From contig JACPRC010000048.1 in the NCBI GenBank assembly GCA_016190175.1, forward strand, positions 1 to 32,834: 32,834 nucleotides of DNA, in the 5' to 3' direction. The position numbers and the translations under genes are program-made. The DNA is from Planctomycetota bacterium. GTDB taxonomy: Bacteria; Planctomycetota; MHYJ01; JACPRB01. Shown one piece after another: positions 3,008-13,703 of the stretch. How positions within the stretch are numbered: position 1 is the stretch's first letter; the number at the start of each line of letters is the position of its first letter. The notes beneath the pieces are model-generated. The model did no database searches. It saw nothing but the letters and a program-made list of their open reading frames with translations, and was not told the DNA's origin.

Positions 3008-6000
3008 CTACCTGTCCGTCACCTTGATCCGGTTCTCCCCGCTCGACCCCGCGATCTCCGCCGCGTACATGTTGTAGGCGAACGCCGGCAGCACGTGGAA
3101 GTCGCCCGGCGTCTCCGCGCGCATCGTGTACTGGATCGTCTGCCCGCCGCGCAGGTACGTCGCCGCGACGCAGACCTTCTCGTCGCGCGCCTCGATGCGG
3201 GAGTACCACCAGCGCCACCGGCCGCGGCAGCCCCACAGGCCGTAGAACGCGTCTTCCTTCACGACCTCGAAGCCCGACGGCAGCGGGTCCTCGATCATCA
3301 CGTACTCGTAGTTGCCGTCGCACTCCACCTTCAGCGTCACCTCGATCTCCTCGCCCGACTTCACCGTCTCGCCGTCCTTGAGCGGCTCGGAGTACCGGCG
3401 CTTGCCGTCCCACATCACGCGGGCGTACGTGCGCTCGACCCGGATCGACCCCTTCGTCGGCTCGAAGCTCTCGCGGCTCTCGTAGTACTTGAGGAGGACC
3501 GAGTAGTAGAGGTTGCCCTTCCCCTCCTTCTCGATCGTGATCTCGTTCGCGCCCGCGTTGAACTGGCCCGCCTTGAGGATGCGCACGCCGTCGAACTTCA
3601 GCAGGTTCTCCTTCGTGATGCGCTCGCGCACGATCGGGTCGCCGTTCAGCTTCACCGTGAGCGCGTAGTCCGCCTCCAGCTCCTTCGTCATCGCGATGTA
3701 GTCGGAGAGGGCGTAGACCGCGGCGGCCGTGTCCTTCGTCGAGTACCAGCGGTTCCCCTGCCGCTTCGCGGAGAGCCAGCGCACGACCTTGTGGACCTTC
3801 TCGTTCTTCGGGTCGATCGCGACCATCGCCTTGAGGATGTAGGCGGTGCACTCGATGCCGTTGTCCATCCAACTGTGGCGCGGGGCGTTCCCCTCCCAGT
3901 AGCAGTAGCCTTCGCCGACCTTCGCGGTCTCGTCGAGGTTGGCGAGGATCGTCGCGGCGCGCTCGGCGTCGCCCGCGCGGTGGAGCGCCATCGCCAGCAG
4001 GCCGCGCGAGTAGTTGTTCAACTCGCCGCGCTTGTCGTAGAGAGACAGCAGCGTCTCCTTCGGAGCCTTCCCCGCCTCCGCGAGCGCGAAGGCCATGTAC
4101 GCCTTCGTGTCGAGCGGGTCGCCGCCGCCGAGGAGCTTCGCCAGGCACGCGGCGCCGCGTTCGAGGACGTTCGCGTCCACGGGGAAGTCGGCCGCGCGCG
4201 CCTGCGCGAGGCCGTAGACGACGTACGCGGTCATGAACGGATGGCTCGCGTCCGCCTCCCACCAGCCCCAGCCGCCGTCCTGGTGCTGGAAGTTGTAGAG
4301 CCGCTGGAGCCCCTGCGAGACCATCTCGGGTAGCTCTCTGTCCAGCTTCTCGTTCTTGAGACCGAGGCCTCGCAGCGTCGAGGCCGTCACCACGCTCGGC
4401 AGGAATCGGCTCATCGTCTGCTCGACGCAGCCGTACGGGTAGCCCGCGAGGTACTCCAGCGCATCCAGGATCTGCGACGCCACGCTCGGCGAGACGACGA
4501 TCCGCAGCTCGCTCGCCTCCGGGATCGCGTCCTTCGGAACCGCGATCGAGATCGACTGCGACGTCTCGACCATCCCGGCCTTCGTCTCGAAGCGGAGCGC
4601 CCCGTGCGCCAGGATCGGGACGCTCAGTTTCATCGCGTCCGACTCCTTCGGCGTCAGCGCCTTCGCCGTGAAGGTCGCCGTACCCGCCTTCTTGACGCGG
4701 ACCTTCCAGTCCACGCGCTTGTCCTCGTTCTTCGCAAGCCGCAGTACCGTCTCCTTTTCGCCGACGAGTTCCACGCCCTCGGCCTCGATCGAGACCTGCA
4801 CCTCGTCCACGTCGTCGCGGTAGTTGTGGACGACCGCGGAGACGACGGTCTCGTCGTTCTGCGTGAAGAAGCGCGGAGTCTCGAGACGGACGATGACCTC
4901 CTTGCGGCAGATGACGCTGTGGAGCTGCTGCCCGACCTTCGCATCGGCCGTGAGGCCGCGCACGGTCGTGCGCCACGTCGTAAGCGAGTCCGGCATGCGC
5001 ATCTCGAACGTCGCGCGCCCGTTTGCGTCGGTCACCACCTGCGCCTTCCAGAACATCGTGTCGGGGAACTCGGAGCGCGTTTCGGTGTCGGCCATGCCGC
5101 GGTCCTTCTTCTTCGCCATTTCCGGTTCCTCGGACCGCCGCGCATCGTCCCTAAGGCGGCCGCCGTAACCGTCGCCGGATTTCCCTTCCTTCTGTCCCGC
5201 GCGCCCGTAGTCGCGGTAGTGCAGCGACGTCGTCGTCTGCACCCGGTTCGGCCGGCGCGAGTAGAGGAACTTGCGGAAGTCGCGGGCGATCTCCTCCTGG
5301 ATCGCGTAGATCGACTCGTCCACGATGGAGACCGCGAACTCGCCGCGCACGGGCTTGCCGTCCTGATCCGTCGCCTCGACGGTCACGGTTACGGCCTCGC
5401 GCGGCCGGTACTGCGACTGGTTCATCGTGACCTTCACGTTCAGGAGCCGGTCGCGGGGCGGCACGGAAAGGACCTTCGACCGCTGGATGAACTCGTTCTT
5501 CACGAGCGCCGCGACGGAGAAGTAGACGTTCGGCGCGAATTCCGCGCGGTCGATCGGGATCTCGACGAGGGCCGTGTGTCCCTTGATGAGCACGACCTGA
5601 TGGCGGTACACCCCGTCGCACTCGAGTGTCACGAGCGCATGGACGTTCTTGTGCTGGCTGGCGAGGAGGATCTTCGCCGTCTCGCCGACCTGGTAGCTCG
5701 TCTTGTCCGGGACGATCTCGATCCCGTTGAAGTTCTGGAAGTCCGCGGACCACGCGCGTCCCGAGACCCAGATGTACAGATCCGTCTTGACCTCGTTGCC
5801 CTTCCGGTCCTTCGCGGAGGCGAGGAGACGGACGTAGCCCTCCTTCTCGACGGTAAAGCCGAGGTCGGCGAGGCCGTTCGCGTCGGTCGCCGTGCTCCCC
5901 GCGTAGAATTCGTCGTGCTCGTACGCGCCGCCCTTCTCGTGGCGCACCCAGCGGCTCGTGGAGGCCGCGACCCGGACCTGGAGGTCCGGCACCGCCTTGC

Positions 6001-9488: not shown

Positions 9489-10676
9489 CTACGAGGCGTG
9501 ACGCGCGATGTAGTCGCGGACCAGCCCCAGCGCCTCCTTCAGCACTTCCTCCGGCGGCAGGAACACGACCCGGAAGTGGCGCGTCCCGGCCGCCTGGCCG
9601 AAGCCCGCGCCGTGCACGACGATCACGCCCGTCGCGCGAATGAGCCCGCGCACGAACTCCTCGTCCTCCTCGCGGATCGCGAGCCGCGGGAAGGCATAGA
9701 AGGCGGCCGCGGGCGGGACGCAGGAGACTCCGGGCATCGCGGTCAGCGCGGCCTGCGTGACGTCCCGGCGGCGCCGCAACGTCTCGACGGTGCGCCCGAG
9801 GTGCGACTGGTCCCCCTCGAGCGCCGGCTTGACCGCGTACATCATCGGATGGTTCGACGAGAGCCGCGCGCGGAGGAACTTCTCGACGGCGTCGCCGTAC
9901 GCCTGGACCTCCTTCTCCGGACCGCTCAGGATTCCCCAGCCCATGCGCCAGCCCGGGGCGAGGTACGCCTTCGACAGCCCGTTGAAGGTCAGCACCGGGA
10001 CATCCGGCGACAGCGACGCGAGCGGCGGCTGCGCCGGACCGTCGAGCACGAGCTTGTCGTAGATCTCGTCCGCGATCACGAGGAACCCCTTCTTCGCCGC
10101 GATCCCGACGACGGATGCGAGCGTCTCGCGCGGCGCGACGGAGCCGGTGGGGTTGTTCGGGTTGATGACGACGGCCGCGCGCGTGCGCGCGTCGGCCAGT
10201 TCCGCCATGCGCTCGACGTCCGGGGACCAGCCGCGCTCCTCGACCAGCGGATAGTGCCGGCACTCGATCTCGAGCTTGTGGAGCACGGCCTCGTAGAGCG
10301 GGTAGCCGGGCGACGGAACGAGCACGTTGTCGCCCCGGTTCGCGAGGGAGGCCAGCGCGATCTCGATCCCTTCGCTCGTGCCCGAGCAGAGGAAGGCGCG
10401 CCGGATCGCCCGGATCCCGCGGCGCCCGGCGTCGGCCCGCACGGCGTCGAGGGCTTCGGCCAGGCCGATCGAGTCGCCGTATCCGTTGCGCCCGTCGCGC
10501 ATGGCGCGCTCGACGGCCTCGATCATGGCCGGCGGCGTCTTGAAGTCGAACGCCAGCGGGTCGCCGATGTTGAGCGGGTAGAGCTTCCGGCCGGCGCGCT
10601 TCGCCTCGGCGGCGACGGCGAGGACGTCGCGGACCGCGTACCGGATCTCGCGCGAGCGGGCGGACGGTTCGATCAT
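9489..10676 (-). CDS. Class I PLP-dependent aminotransferase, AlaA/AspC-like
   Basis: A 395-residue aminotransferase of fold type I. Visible: the NPNNPTGS loop (172-179), ADEIYDKL with the PLP-contacting Asp203 and Tyr206, the Schiff-base lysine in GLSKAYLAPGWRMGW (Lys236), and the substrate-carboxylate arginine in RHFRVVF near the C-terminus. It transfers amino groups between an amino acid and a 2-oxoacid; the GLSKAYLAPGWRMGW phrase is close to AlaA/AlaT-type alanine-glutamate enzymes, but the substrate is not settled. It is the last gene of the minus-strand operon, 30 nt after the aldo/keto-reductase-like gene, with only a weak AGGGTGA ribosome site. It may be a housekeeping gene that shares the transcript by chance. 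Confidence 0.9.
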   Translation of the reverse strand: MIEPSARSREIRYAVRDVLAVAAEAKRAGRKLYPLNIGDPLAFDFKTPPAMIEAVERAMRDGRNGYGDSIGLAEALDAVRADAGRRGIRAIRRAFLCSGTSEGIEIALASLANRGDNVLVPSPGYPLYEAVLHKLEIECRHYPLVEERGWSPDVERMAELADARTRAAVVINPNNPTGSVAPRETLASVVGIAAKKGFLVIADEIYDKLVLDGPAQPPLASLSPDVPVLTFNGLSKAYLAPGWRMGWGILSGPEKEVQAYGDAVEKFLRARLSSNHPMMYAVKPALEGDQSHLGRTVETLRRRRDVTQAALTAMPGVSCVPPAAAFYAFPRLAIREEDEEFVRGLIRATGVIVVHGAGFGQAAGTRHFRVVFLPPEEVLKEALGLVRDYIARHAS

Positions 10677-10706: not shown

Positions 10707-11561
10707 TCATCCCGAAGTTCTTCCGAACATCCATCGAAATCCTCCGACCGCCGCTTCGTGAACCGCGTCGCCGAAGCGGCAGACTTCCTCGCGGCGCGCG
10801 GGGTCGAGCGGCCCGGCGCGAACCGCCTCCACGTCCTCGCGCAGTTCCGCGGTCGTTTGCGGCGCGCACCAGACCGTGTCGACCATCGGATGGCCCAGCA
10901 CGAAGCGGTAGCACTCTCCGCCGGTCATCGCGCGCGGGAAGCCCCCCTTCGGCAGCGGCTTCAGGAGCATCCTCCAGCGCGTGGCGGTGTAGGCGATGAT
11001 CCCCGGTCGCCGCTCGCCGAGGTCGGCCAGCGGGGCGAAGATCTCGCGCTCCGCGCCCCGGTGGGCCGCGTTGTAGCGGATCATGAGGACGTCCGCGGGG
11101 AGCTCGCGCGCGAGCGCCGCGGCGAGCGGACGGTCGTGGCACGAGAAGCCGATCGCCCGCGTCTTGCCCTCGTCGCGCAGGCGGACCATGGCGGAGCGGA
11201 CGCTGTCGCGGAAGTACCAGCGCCGCTGGACCCATCCCATGAGCCACGCGTCGAGATGATCCGTGCCCAGGGTCCTCAGGTGTTTTTCGAGCTCGAGGCG
11301 CACGAGATGGGCGACGGGAAACGACGCCTCCGAAATGAGCACGAGATCGTCGCGCCGGCCCGCGCGGATGAGCCGGCGCACGCCCTCGGAGATGGCCTTC
11401 ATCCCCGTGTGCGCGAGGAACGTGTTGACGCCGTGTTCGTGAAAGGCGCGCTCGACGTCGGCAGGGCGCAATCCGGGTTTCCGCAGGCCGCTCATCCCCA
11501 GTTGCGCCAGCCCGAGCGGACTGACGCGCAACCCCGTCTTCCCGAGCGTGCGGTACGTCAC
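10707..11561 (-). CDS. Aldo/keto-reductase-fold protein lacking the catalytic tetrad
   Basis: A 284-residue protein starting VTYRTLGKTGLRVSPLGLAQLGMSG, the classic N-terminus of the aldo/keto reductase family. The start is GTG 11561, whose GTGA overlaps the stop of the Cas10-like gene, so translation is probably coupled; the frame stays open far upstream but only as a shadow of that gene. All four family catalytic positions look replaced. The FDTA aspartate is Leu49 (FLAH), the nearby tyrosine is missing, the STK lysine is Glu78 (LISEASF), and the active-site histidine after LDAW is Gly109 (LMGW). Barrel features (RAIGFSCHD, MIRYNAAHRG) remain. It is therefore likely a non-redox member of the fold, perhaps binding or regulatory. 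Upstream genes encode the Cas10-like protein and the kinase. Confidence 0.75.
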   Translation of the reverse strand: MTYRTLGKTGLRVSPLGLAQLGMSGLRKPGLRPADVERAFHEHGVNTFLAHTGMKAISEGVRRLIRAGRRDDLVLISEASFPVAHLVRLELEKHLRTLGTDHLDAWLMGWVQRRWYFRDSVRSAMVRLRDEGKTRAIGFSCHDRPLAAALARELPADVLMIRYNAAHRGAEREIFAPLADLGERRPGIIAYTATRWRMLLKPLPKGGFPRAMTGGECYRFVLGHPMVDTVWCAPQTTAELREDVEAVRAGPLDPARREEVCRFGDAVHEAAVGGFRWMFGRTSG

Positions 11562-13102
11562 GGGCCGCCTCCCGACACGAGGCGTGCCGTCCCCGCTTCG
11601 TCCGCCTCGATCAGCCGCCGGACGATCTCCGATTCCCACCGTCCCCAGACGACGGCCCCGGAAGCGCGATGCGCCACGGCCAGCGCGTCGCGGCCCGCCT
11701 TCTCCTTCGCGACGTCGTCCAGCAGGAGGCGCGCCTCTTCCATCAACCCCATCACGGGCTCCTTCGCGTTCACCAGCGTCACCGCGGCCGAAATGGTCGC
11801 GGCGTCTCCGGGATTCGTGATCAGGACCTCGCCCGGCGCGGGCGACCACGGCGACGGGCACGCGGCGACGGCGCCGTCGGCCTTGCGGATCGCGAACGGC
11901 GTGCGGTAGAGATCGCGGATCTCCCGCGCGGCCCGGATCGCGTTTGCGACCGGAAGAATCGCGACGACGTCGTCCCCTCCTCCATAGATCGAGACGCCGC
12001 CGTGCTTCTTGAGCACGTACGGCACCGAGTGGAGCGAGAACTCCGCGAGGGCCTCGCTGAGGGCGAGATGGTAGGAGGGCGTCACGTCGCGCGGGCCGTG
12101 CAGCGTCTTCCCCCGCACGAGATCGCCCGAGTGATCGCCATCCATAACCAGCAGCGCGTAGGCAACCTCTCGGGGCGACGGGAACTCCAGTCCGGCGAAC
12201 CGCTTCGTGAGGCAGAGGCAGCACAACCCGTCGCGGACGACCTCGAACTCCCCGCACTGCGGACAATCTCCAACGGGCCGGCTGCGGGACGGCTTTGCCG
12301 CGACGAGTTTCTCCTGGCTCGCGGCGTGGACGGGCGCGTAGACCCCGCCGTCATTCTCTCCCCACGGAACAGACACCCACGTACACCGCCAGAAGTCCCT
12401 CGTCTGCCGATTCCAGCGGTCCTCGTCCGGATCTCCCAGGCGCAGCCGCGCCGCCTCCGCGATCCGCTCCCATTCCGCCGCGATGCCATCGCGGATCTTC
12501 GGGCCTATGCCATCGTGCGGCGTCACGGCCAGGAGCCGGTTCGAGAACGGCGGGATGCGGACGCGATCGTCCGCGGGTTCGCCGAGCCACGCGCGGAAGA
12601 GCGGCTGTCCCCACACGTGGGGATAGATCACATGGTCCGGTCCGAGCTCCTCGCAGATGATCTGGAGGCCGGCCCAGAGCAGGCGCGAGGCGATCATGGA
12701 GCCGGCCCAGAGGTCGCCGAGGGTTCCCGCGGGCCGCGTGAAGGCGCGAACCGGATCGAGGGAGAAGGCAAAGAGTCGAGGGCGGCATTCGCACCCGATC
12801 AGTGACGCCAAGCTCAACGACCCGTCATGCCAGATGGAACCGCCGCGCGTCGACGGCATCTTGGCCCATGCGCCTCGGAACGCGGGCTCGTCCCGGCAGA
12901 GCGCGACGCGCCGGTTCGCCCATGTGCGGAGGAAGTCGGGCTCGTCGGGCCTCCGGCCTTCGATCCGCACGGGGTCCGGGCCGCCGTTCACGTCCAGCTT
13001 CGCGCGCGAGATCGGGTGGTCGATCCGGACGGCGGACGGGTGGATGCGGTCCGCGACTCCCCGAAGGAAGGAATGGAACAGGTCGGCCTTATCCACGGGC
13101 AT
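11558..13102 (-). CDS. Orphan Cas10/Cmr2-like protein with intact GGDD palm, no HD nuclease domain
   Basis: A 514-residue protein recognisable as a type III-B Cas10 (Cmr2). In order: a short N-terminal region with DHPIS and SIWHDGSLSLASL, matching the linker after the HD domain in normal Cmr2; a first palm-like region with LFAFSLDPV and LGDLWAGSMIAS; a zinc finger of Cys280, Cys283, Cys294 and Cys297; and a second palm with MDGDHSGD (320-327) and YGGGDD (373-378), the metal-binding cyclase motif. The HD nuclease domain is absent; normal Cmr2 has 800 or more residues. No cmr1, 3, 4, 5 or 6, no CARF protein and no CRISPR array are in the window. ATG 13102 overlaps the kinase stop by 14 nt; an in-frame ATG at 13150 is deeper in that gene. 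It could make a cyclic oligonucleotide without an RNA-guided complex, or be a relic. Confidence 0.85.
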   Translation of the reverse strand: MPVDKADLFHSFLRGVADRIHPSAVRIDHPISRAKLDVNGGPDPVRIEGRRPDEPDFLRTWANRRVALCRDEPAFRGAWAKMPSTRGGSIWHDGSLSLASLIGCECRPRLFAFSLDPVRAFTRPAGTLGDLWAGSMIASRLLWAGLQIICEELGPDHVIYPHVWGQPLFRAWLGEPADDRVRIPPFSNRLLAVTPHDGIGPKIRDGIAAEWERIAEAARLRLGDPDEDRWNRQTRDFWRCTWVSVPWGENDGGVYAPVHAASQEKLVAAKPSRSRPVGDCPQCGEFEVVRDGLCCLCLTKRFAGLEFPSPREVAYALLVMDGDHSGDLVRGKTLHGPRDVTPSYHLALSEALAEFSLHSVPYVLKKHGGVSIYGGGDDVVAILPVANAIRAAREIRDLYRTPFAIRKADGAVAACPSPWSPAPGEVLITNPGDAATISAAVTLVNAKEPVMGLMEEARLLLDDVAKEKAGRDALAVAHRASGAVVWGRWESEIVRRLIEADEAGTARLVSGGGP

Positions 13103-13703
13103 GCTTCGCCAGCCTGTCTCGCAATCCGTCCACTTTCTTCGCGAGAACATCCAGGACGAATTTCTCGCGCGTCTCGGGCGTGTCCCCCGTCACGTCGTGG
13201 TGCGGGACCCTCGCGTTGAGCAGGTAGTCCTCGATGCGCCGCGCGATGTCCGCGCGCTCGTCCTTCGTCGACACCTTCCACGCTTTCGCCTTGGGCTTGT
13301 AATCGAGTCGCGGAGGAATGTGGAAAATGAAATCGTACGTCGCGATCTCCTCGAGCGACCACTTGAAGAGCTTGTGGACGACCATGACATCGCGCGGGTC
13401 CTTGAGGTCGAACCCCCAGAAGCAGGCAAAGACGTACGGCAGGAAGGTGGCCGAATCGCAGACGACGAAGTCGCAGTGCCGGAGGTCCTCCTCGCGGCGC
13501 CGCTGTCCCAGGTAGATCATCACCTGATCGAGGAGGTCCTGGGATTGGCGCGCCGCGGGCTTGACGTAGCGGAAGAGGTAGGTCCGGGCGTATTCGATGG
13601 CCGAGTCCGCGCCGTAGCCGAGGAGACTGAGGGTATTGGTGAGCCGGCGGGCGAGGACGGTCTTGCCCGAGGACGGGGCGCCGACGACGGCGATCTTGGT
13701 CAT
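13089..13703 (-). CDS. NadR/AAA_28-like P-loop kinase
   Basis: A 204-residue P-loop protein starting MTKIAVVGAPSSGKTVLARRL, with Walker A GAPSSGKT at 8-15. It continues with a short, acidic core (IEYARTYLFRY; HCDFVVCDSATFLPYVFACFWG; YDFIFHIPP). Its order and size match the nicotinamide-riboside-kinase-like domain of NadR and the AAA_28 family, small kinases that phosphorylate nucleosides or nucleotide-like substrates. The CDSATF strand is the likely Walker B region. The actual substrate is unknown. It is the first gene of the minus-strand operon, and its 3' end overlaps the Cas10-like start by 14 nt, so the two are likely made together. A kinase that makes or consumes a nucleotide would fit a neighbour with a nucleotide-cyclase palm, but that link is inference. 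Confidence 0.75.
   Translation of the reverse strand: MTKIAVVGAPSSGKTVLARRLTNTLSLLGYGADSAIEYARTYLFRYVKPAARQSQDLLDQVMIYLGQRRREEDLRHCDFVVCDSATFLPYVFACFWGFDLKDPRDVMVVHKLFKWSLEEIATYDFIFHIPPRLDYKPKAKAWKVSTKDERADIARRIEDYLLNARVPHHDVTGDTPETREKFVLDVLAKKVDGLRDRLAKHARG

Follow-up and report, generated by a model that had tools for sequence, protein, structure and literature searches.

Cas10, or Cmr2 in type III-B CRISPR systems, has two palm regions and a zinc finger in the order palm1-zinc finger-palm2 (TIGR02577; P. furiosus Cmr2, PDB 4w8y), and a III-B system requires cmr1, cmr3, cmr4, cmr5 and cmr6 together with cas10. Several departures from this plan have been described. The III-B Cas10 of Vibrio metoecus (VmeCmr) is without the HD nuclease (PMC8682760). 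The Cas10 which makes SAM-AMP, a conjugate of S-adenosyl methionine (SAM), shows that adenylylation by the palm pair can extend to a second substrate (PMC10600005). The mCpol/OptS protein of Panoptes, which uses Cas10-like palm chemistry, is encoded in a small non-CRISPR operon (PMC12657230, PMC12657218); mCpol, a minimal palm protein, forms dimers, and its neighbour is a 2TM-beta effector. Here we describe a reduced III-B Cas10, P0001, whose gene overlaps that of a P-loop kinase, P0002, in a Planctomycetota bacterium (assembly GCA_016190175.1). The stretch analysed, called the window below, is the whole of contig JACPRC010000048.1 (32,834 nucleotides), one of the 231 contigs of a 3.72-Mb draft genome which is 64% complete. 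P0001 is a Cas10 by sequence and lies outside a CRISPR system by context.

The NCBIfam Cmr2 model TIGR02577 matches P0001 at 6.4e-39, with 134 bits for a cut-off of 79, and in Pfam, at E ≤ 1, it matches two Cmr2 families alone, each above the cut-off (Cmr2_N, 6.1e-24; Cas10-Cmr2_palm2, 4.6e-26). The P. furiosus Cmr2 structures are matched at 1.5e-29 to 5e-29. On these grounds P0001 is assigned to the type III-B Cas10/Cmr2 family. An original prediction, made from the DNA letters, had described a Cmr2-like protein with MDGD, GGDD and four cysteines; the family searches bear this out, and the motifs and their coordinates are correct. The two main genes and the parts of P0001 are the following.

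13089-13703, minus strand: P-loop kinase P0002 (NadR-like/AAA_28), 204 residues, first gene of the probable operon
11558-13102, minus strand: reduced Cas10/Cmr2 P0001, 514 residues, ATG start, without the HD catalytic half and domain 4 and with a minimal D2
12455-12775, minus strand: palm1 (Cmr2_N), residues 110-216, with the acceptor asparagine N188 kept
within 12455-12775, minus strand: palm1 segment which reads GPVQxFIxxARKxxDLW in relatives and DPVRAFTRPAGTLGDLW in P0001
12212-12265, minus strand: four-cysteine zinc-finger motif, C280, C283, C294 and C297
11678-12160, minus strand: palm2 catalytic domain, residues 315-475 (block means of the model confidence score, pLDDT, 49-90)
12134-12145, minus strand: MDGD motif, residues 320-323
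11969-11980, minus strand: GGDD active-site motif, residues 375-378, including D377/D378

Among the proteins found, P0001 is closest to a Cas10 whose gene lies at one end of a Nitrospirae contig (L023) and is followed by cmr3, cmr4, cmr5 and cmr6, all of which score above their curated cut-offs. The two proteins share 44% identity in alignment A2 and 46% over 351 trimmed columns, the best blastp segments reaching 41% and 30%. In the tree, they split together from 17 other III-B Cas10s with 100% support, and the branch of P0001 measures 0.86 substitutions per site.

P0001 differs from these relatives by what it has lost. The region of the HD dyad (LHDPPxK in relatives) is not present in P0001 when it is aligned with them, in agreement with the original prediction that the HD nuclease domain is missing, and the N-terminal part consists of 109 residues with no HD motif. 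Just ahead of palm1, P0001 can still be aligned with the last part of the HD region, so the ancestor of P0001 probably carried HD and then lost its catalytic half. The linker between the zinc finger and palm2 is the shortest, with 18 residues compared to 50-205 in 18 other III-B Cas10s, and most of the D2 region is also gone. Only 48 residues follow the catalytic lysine, compared to 128-214 in 17 other III-B Cas10s; the eighteenth, L120, is truncated where its contig stops and was left out of this range. Domain 4, judged by length, and the HD dyad that marks the HD-bearing lineage of the family are therefore absent from P0001; the losses in domain 4 and D2 had not been mentioned in the original prediction.

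The catalytic residues, on the contrary, are present. The positions predicted to bind the metal, the adenine and the donor and acceptor ATP are complete (D321/D323, the adenine serine S349, D377/D378, the catalytic lysine K466, and N188), as are the four cysteines; P0001 thus shares with III-B Cas10/Cmr2 both the order of the parts and the MDGD, GGDD, lysine, serine and acceptor asparagine. Conservation was scored against the columns of the 17 other III-B Cas10s. P0001 keeps 10/10 of the invariant columns in palm2 and 3/5 in palm1, and 13/14 and 7/9, respectively, of those conserved at 90% or more. The palm1 changes at G116, Q119, I122 and R126 all fall in the eroded GPVQxFIxxARKxxDLW segment, whereas L023 keeps three of these four positions. 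Loop L1 of palm1 is an RNA-responsive regulator of the cyclase in Csm1 (PMC12657230), and the eroded segment may be its Cmr2 counterpart.

The acceptor site of P0001 looks ATP-type, judging from residue N188. In the alignment, N188 faces the asparagine at chain position 317 of P. furiosus Cmr2, which becomes N300 with an offset of 17 if the GGDD aspartates of that protein are D673/D674, as we take them to be. N300 adjoins the acceptor ATP, and its counterpart in SAM-AMP synthases is an acidic residue, D70 (PMC10600005). The asparagine of P0001 at this position, rather than an aspartate, disfavors a SAM-AMP-type synthase. K270 of P0001 is also conserved in alignment A2.

CRISPR parts were sought in the window, and RAMP and Cas1 genes in the whole draft genome. 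The window has no CRISPR-like array among its direct repeats, no Rfam match at gathering thresholds and no RAMP-like open reading frame (ORF) among the six-frame ORFs of at least 60 residues, as expected from the original prediction that the locus holds neither cmr/csm backbone genes nor an array. In the 64%-complete genome, no RAMP match was found (RAMPs were found in 11 of the 59 genomes searched, and 4 of 14 controls were positive) and no Cas1 (9 of 14 controls positive). This is moderate evidence only, because a third of the genome is missing. The cmr1, 3, 4, 5 and 6 that accompany cas10 in a III-B system are thus found neither in the window nor in this draft. P0001 itself is matched once in its own genome; the palm2 profile gives two matches there, the second of which is probably a GGDEF-type protein, since this profile also matches in E. 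coli.

When 392 planctomycete genomes were scanned with a palm2 profile, 111 had matches at E ≤ 0.001, 77 above the family cut-off, many of the matches being weak and GGDEF-like. A census of 50 records was made of 40 regions, hand-picked from this list in favor of short frames and all resting on a PF22335 match, and of 10 earlier records; one locus, from G058, is counted in it as both L022 and L024, and a separate Cas10 profile finds Cas10 in 32 of the 50. With RAMP seed profiles chosen by eye from the loci themselves, 38 of the 50 records have direct RAMP hits and 11 more have hits only by weaker iterated phmmer, which makes 49; among the 32 records with a Cas10 profile match, these numbers are 26 direct and 31 with any RAMP-like hit. 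L105, L113, L120 and L123 rest on a single RAMP hit each; two of these, L113 and L123, are perhaps not true Cas10 loci. The sole record with no RAMP-like neighbour is G044 (L018, contig C143, 1857-6307), which illustrates how type III loci decay: its cas10 is broken over frames, with a Csm6-like gene on one side and Cas1/Cas2 on the other. In G357 (L112), cas10 is spread over three frames beside cmr genes. The same search gives no RAMP hit in the window. An open cas10 with no RAMP neighbours is therefore rare in this sample.

The gene of P0002 overlaps cas10 by 14 nucleotides (13089-13102), as originally noted. P0002 has the segments GAPSSGKT, EYAR and DFVVCDSATF, and AAA_28 (2.1e-14) is the only Pfam family that it matches above the cut-off. 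It is 25-31% identical to phage kinases (phrog_2107, 3.5e-12), and the curated NadR model gives 30 bits, far from its cut-off of 341, which is set for the whole of NadR. P0002 belongs to a broad group that includes the NadR kinase domains and the phage AAA_28 kinases, such as gp293 of Bacillus phage G. Five relatives were found on viral contigs. The genes next to the two phage copies scanned encode a leucine-rich-repeat-variant protein and a DNA methylase, which share no family, unlike the situation of P0002 beside cas10. Among the census records, the kinase profile matches only in the window, and a search of 199 genomes with P0002 at 1e-10 matched only its own genome.

The intact catalytic residues, the lack of any other CRISPR part in sight and the pairing with a kinase suggest that the enzyme may now work alone. 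The reading that we favor, tentatively and at somewhat less than even chances, is that P0001 is a III-B Cas10 cut down to a core of two palms that uses ATP and no longer depends on RNA guidance. A type III-B Cas10 would have left the Cmr complex and been trimmed to two palms bridged by the zinc finger. It would most likely bind two ATPs, one in the donor site of palm2 and the other in the acceptor site of palm1, and produce a linear or cyclic oligoadenylate, of the pppApA or cyclic oligoadenylate (cOA) type, with no guide or target RNA. Synthesis would be constitutive, or else controlled by some factor besides RNA, and the kinase would most likely handle a linked nucleotide, by tuning, consuming or protecting the substrate or the product. 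In its favor are the ancestry shared with a Cas10 from a cmr locus, the domain reductions, the retained palm2 core, the isolation from RAMP genes and the host-like codon usage. This reading also draws support from two reports on Cas10 chemistry: isolated Cas10 from T. onnurineus catalyzes a GGDD-dependent adenylylation without its complex (PMC13398931), and the Cas10-like mCpol is constitutively active (PMC12657230). The original prediction of a free-standing nucleotide-signal synthase stands as regards the catalytic residues, the lack of a CRISPR partner in reach and the overlap with the kinase gene; the involvement of the aldo/keto-reductase (AKR)-fold protein encoded downstream is not supported.

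The parallel with mCpol, also drawn at the outset, holds for function only, because P0001 is a two-palm, zinc-finger III-B Cas10. It has both palms where mCpol is minimal, its neighbour is a kinase, its likeness to mCpol lies in the predicted palm chemistry and in a small, probable operon outside CRISPR, and, unlike mCpol, it shares 44% identity with a Cmr2 from a cmr locus and matches only Cmr2 in Pfam. Membership of the mCpol family is rejected on this architecture.

Several observations weigh against an RNA-independent synthase. Isolated Cas10 gives little or no cOA synthesis (PMC13398931). Retention of the core is clear only at strict thresholds, since P0001 keeps just 17/24 of the palm2 columns and 13/20 of the palm1 columns that are conserved at 80% or more. 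P0001 sits on a terminal branch 2.3 times as long as its sister's, a difference that relaxed selection would also produce. The structure predicted by AlphaFold is of poor quality (mean pLDDT 54), so its Foldseek matches to Cmr2 add little beyond sequence. No effector was found for the signal; the Csm6-HEPN family and SAVED searches gave no match, and their controls were silent too, so they prove nothing. The kinase-Cas10 pairing has been seen once, at one locus, and its recurrence without cmr genes, which the original prediction had raised, was found nowhere among the genomes and records searched. Finally, no orthologue of P0001 was found in the 392 genomes of the phylum at E ≤ 1e-20, in pattern-based scans of genome contigs and viral contigs, or in the phages and plasmids searched; nor was there one in the class of G058, which is represented by two genomes only.

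The main rival, which we consider unlikely but by no means negligible, is that the locus is a relic: a former III-B locus would have lost its other cas genes, leaving a trimmed cas10 with no function between resident genes. Decaying copies of cas10 do exist, as in G044 and G357, the palm1 segment is eroded, the branch of P0001 is faster than its sister's, and the examined homologues belong to type III loci, an outcome that the original prediction had named as damaging to itself. However, the architecture of P0001 argues against simple decay: the frame of 514 codons is intact despite three separate in-frame reductions, the starts and stops overlap with those of the neighbours, and all ten invariant palm2 columns are kept. 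At 0.86 substitutions per site, unconstrained sites would remain unchanged in about 42% of cases each, so by simple arithmetic ten out of ten would be kept with a probability of about 2e-4. An intact palm2 over such a long branch speaks against long neutrality, not against a recent loss of function. It is improbable that P0001 instead still serves in a Cmr complex, with its partner genes located in the third of the genome that is missing, the other outcome that had been named in advance. The incompleteness of the genome leaves room for them, a III-B locus with cmr1, 3, 4 and 6 is found in the same family (G002), and the HD-less III-B Cas10s of G045 and G053, whose GGDD is intact like that of P0001, sit in such loci. 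Both of these, however, have a long C-terminal part. Domain 4 is the contact for the small subunit; P0001 has none by length, whereas all 17 uncut comparison Cas10s have at least 128 residues there, so a complex in trans needs domain 4 to be dispensable. Moreover, neither a RAMP nor Cas1 was found in the genome, and cas10 is flanked by a kinase gene and an AKR-fold gene rather than by cmr genes.

A guide-independent pathway with two enzymes, parallel to the two steps of NadR, also has to be considered, and we regard it as quite doubtful. The phage-type kinase would phosphorylate a nucleoside-like acceptor, to which the palm pair would add AMP, giving a new adenylate conjugate or dinucleotide rather than an oligoadenylate. 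The resemblance of P0002 to the kinase domains of NadR and to AAA_28 kinases of phages and the overlap of its gene with cas10 fit this scheme, and Cas10 can conjugate AMP to SAM (PMC10600005) and to Tris (PMC13398931). The acceptor site of P0001, however, keeps its ATP-type asparagine and K270, and the gene pair was not found elsewhere.

Two further genes follow cas10.

10707-11561, minus strand: AKR-fold protein P0003, GTG start, overlapping neighbour, probably not a functional partner
9489-10676, minus strand: class I/II aminotransferase, starting 30 nucleotides past the AKR stop, possibly on the same transcript

The reading frames of the kinase, Cas10 and P0003 are all open, and cas10 overlaps the AKR gene by 4 nucleotides (11558-11561), as originally reported; the kinase, cas10, AKR and aminotransferase genes may be carried on one transcript. 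Pfam names a kinase, an AKR, an aminotransferase and a weak histidine-kinase-like ATPase among the neighbours. The original prediction gave the AKR-fold protein a possible part in handling the substrate or product of P0001. This role is not supported because its relatives occur elsewhere without Cas10: they are present in 14 other genomes out of 199 (E ≤ 1e-15, the best being 62% identical), and the nine loci fetched (L044-L052) show no Cas10 or kinase match nearby. In alignment, P0003 also seems to be without the usual AKR catalytic tetrad. P0003 is thus rejected as a functional partner and treated as a lineage gene that overlaps cas10 by chance. AKR-fold proteins apparently without the tetrad recur in Planctomycetota, in 15 of the 199 genomes including this one, in differing contexts (L044-L052). 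When the aminotransferase, which the original prediction had not mentioned, was used as a synteny anchor in five genomes of the family, the window's own copy was the sole match.

The codon usage of the kinase, Cas10 and AKR genes is within the range of the resident genes, and a recent foreign insertion of the three is therefore disfavored. At 747-2989 on the plus strand lies a candidate PARIS-like pair, whose ATPase matches AriA at 3e-21, with further defence ATPases, PtuA among them, close behind; the second ORF overlaps the ATPase and weakly matches the B part of AriAB (7.6e-5). The codon usage of the AriA-like ATPase is clearly foreign compared to the rest of the window. A direct repeat of 133 nucleotides with 99% identity is found near the left end of the contig (446-578) and inside an alpha-2-macroglobulin gene (3966-4098), and results from a duplication or from an assembly artefact. 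In the III-B locus of the family relative G002 (L019, 12796-14550, minus strand), a CRISPR-associated NE0113 domain is fused to a sigma-54 activator, possibly a signal-responsive transcription activator.

Solo Cas10 proteins have already been mentioned in print, as a class filtered out: a locus-completeness threshold was set to exclude them (PMC10600005). Another survey of type III systems used a minimum of 500 residues, which P0001, with 514, would just pass (PMC11229360). Intact solo Cas10s may be under-studied because published surveys filtered such genes away; no description of a solo Cas10 with a kinase was found in the titles and abstract openings of the papers that the literature searches gave. 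If the reading favored here is true, an RNA-independent two-palm Cas10 would stand between the Cas10 of CRISPR systems and minimal cyclases like mCpol, and would tell the parts of Cas10 needed for synthesis from those needed for RNA control.

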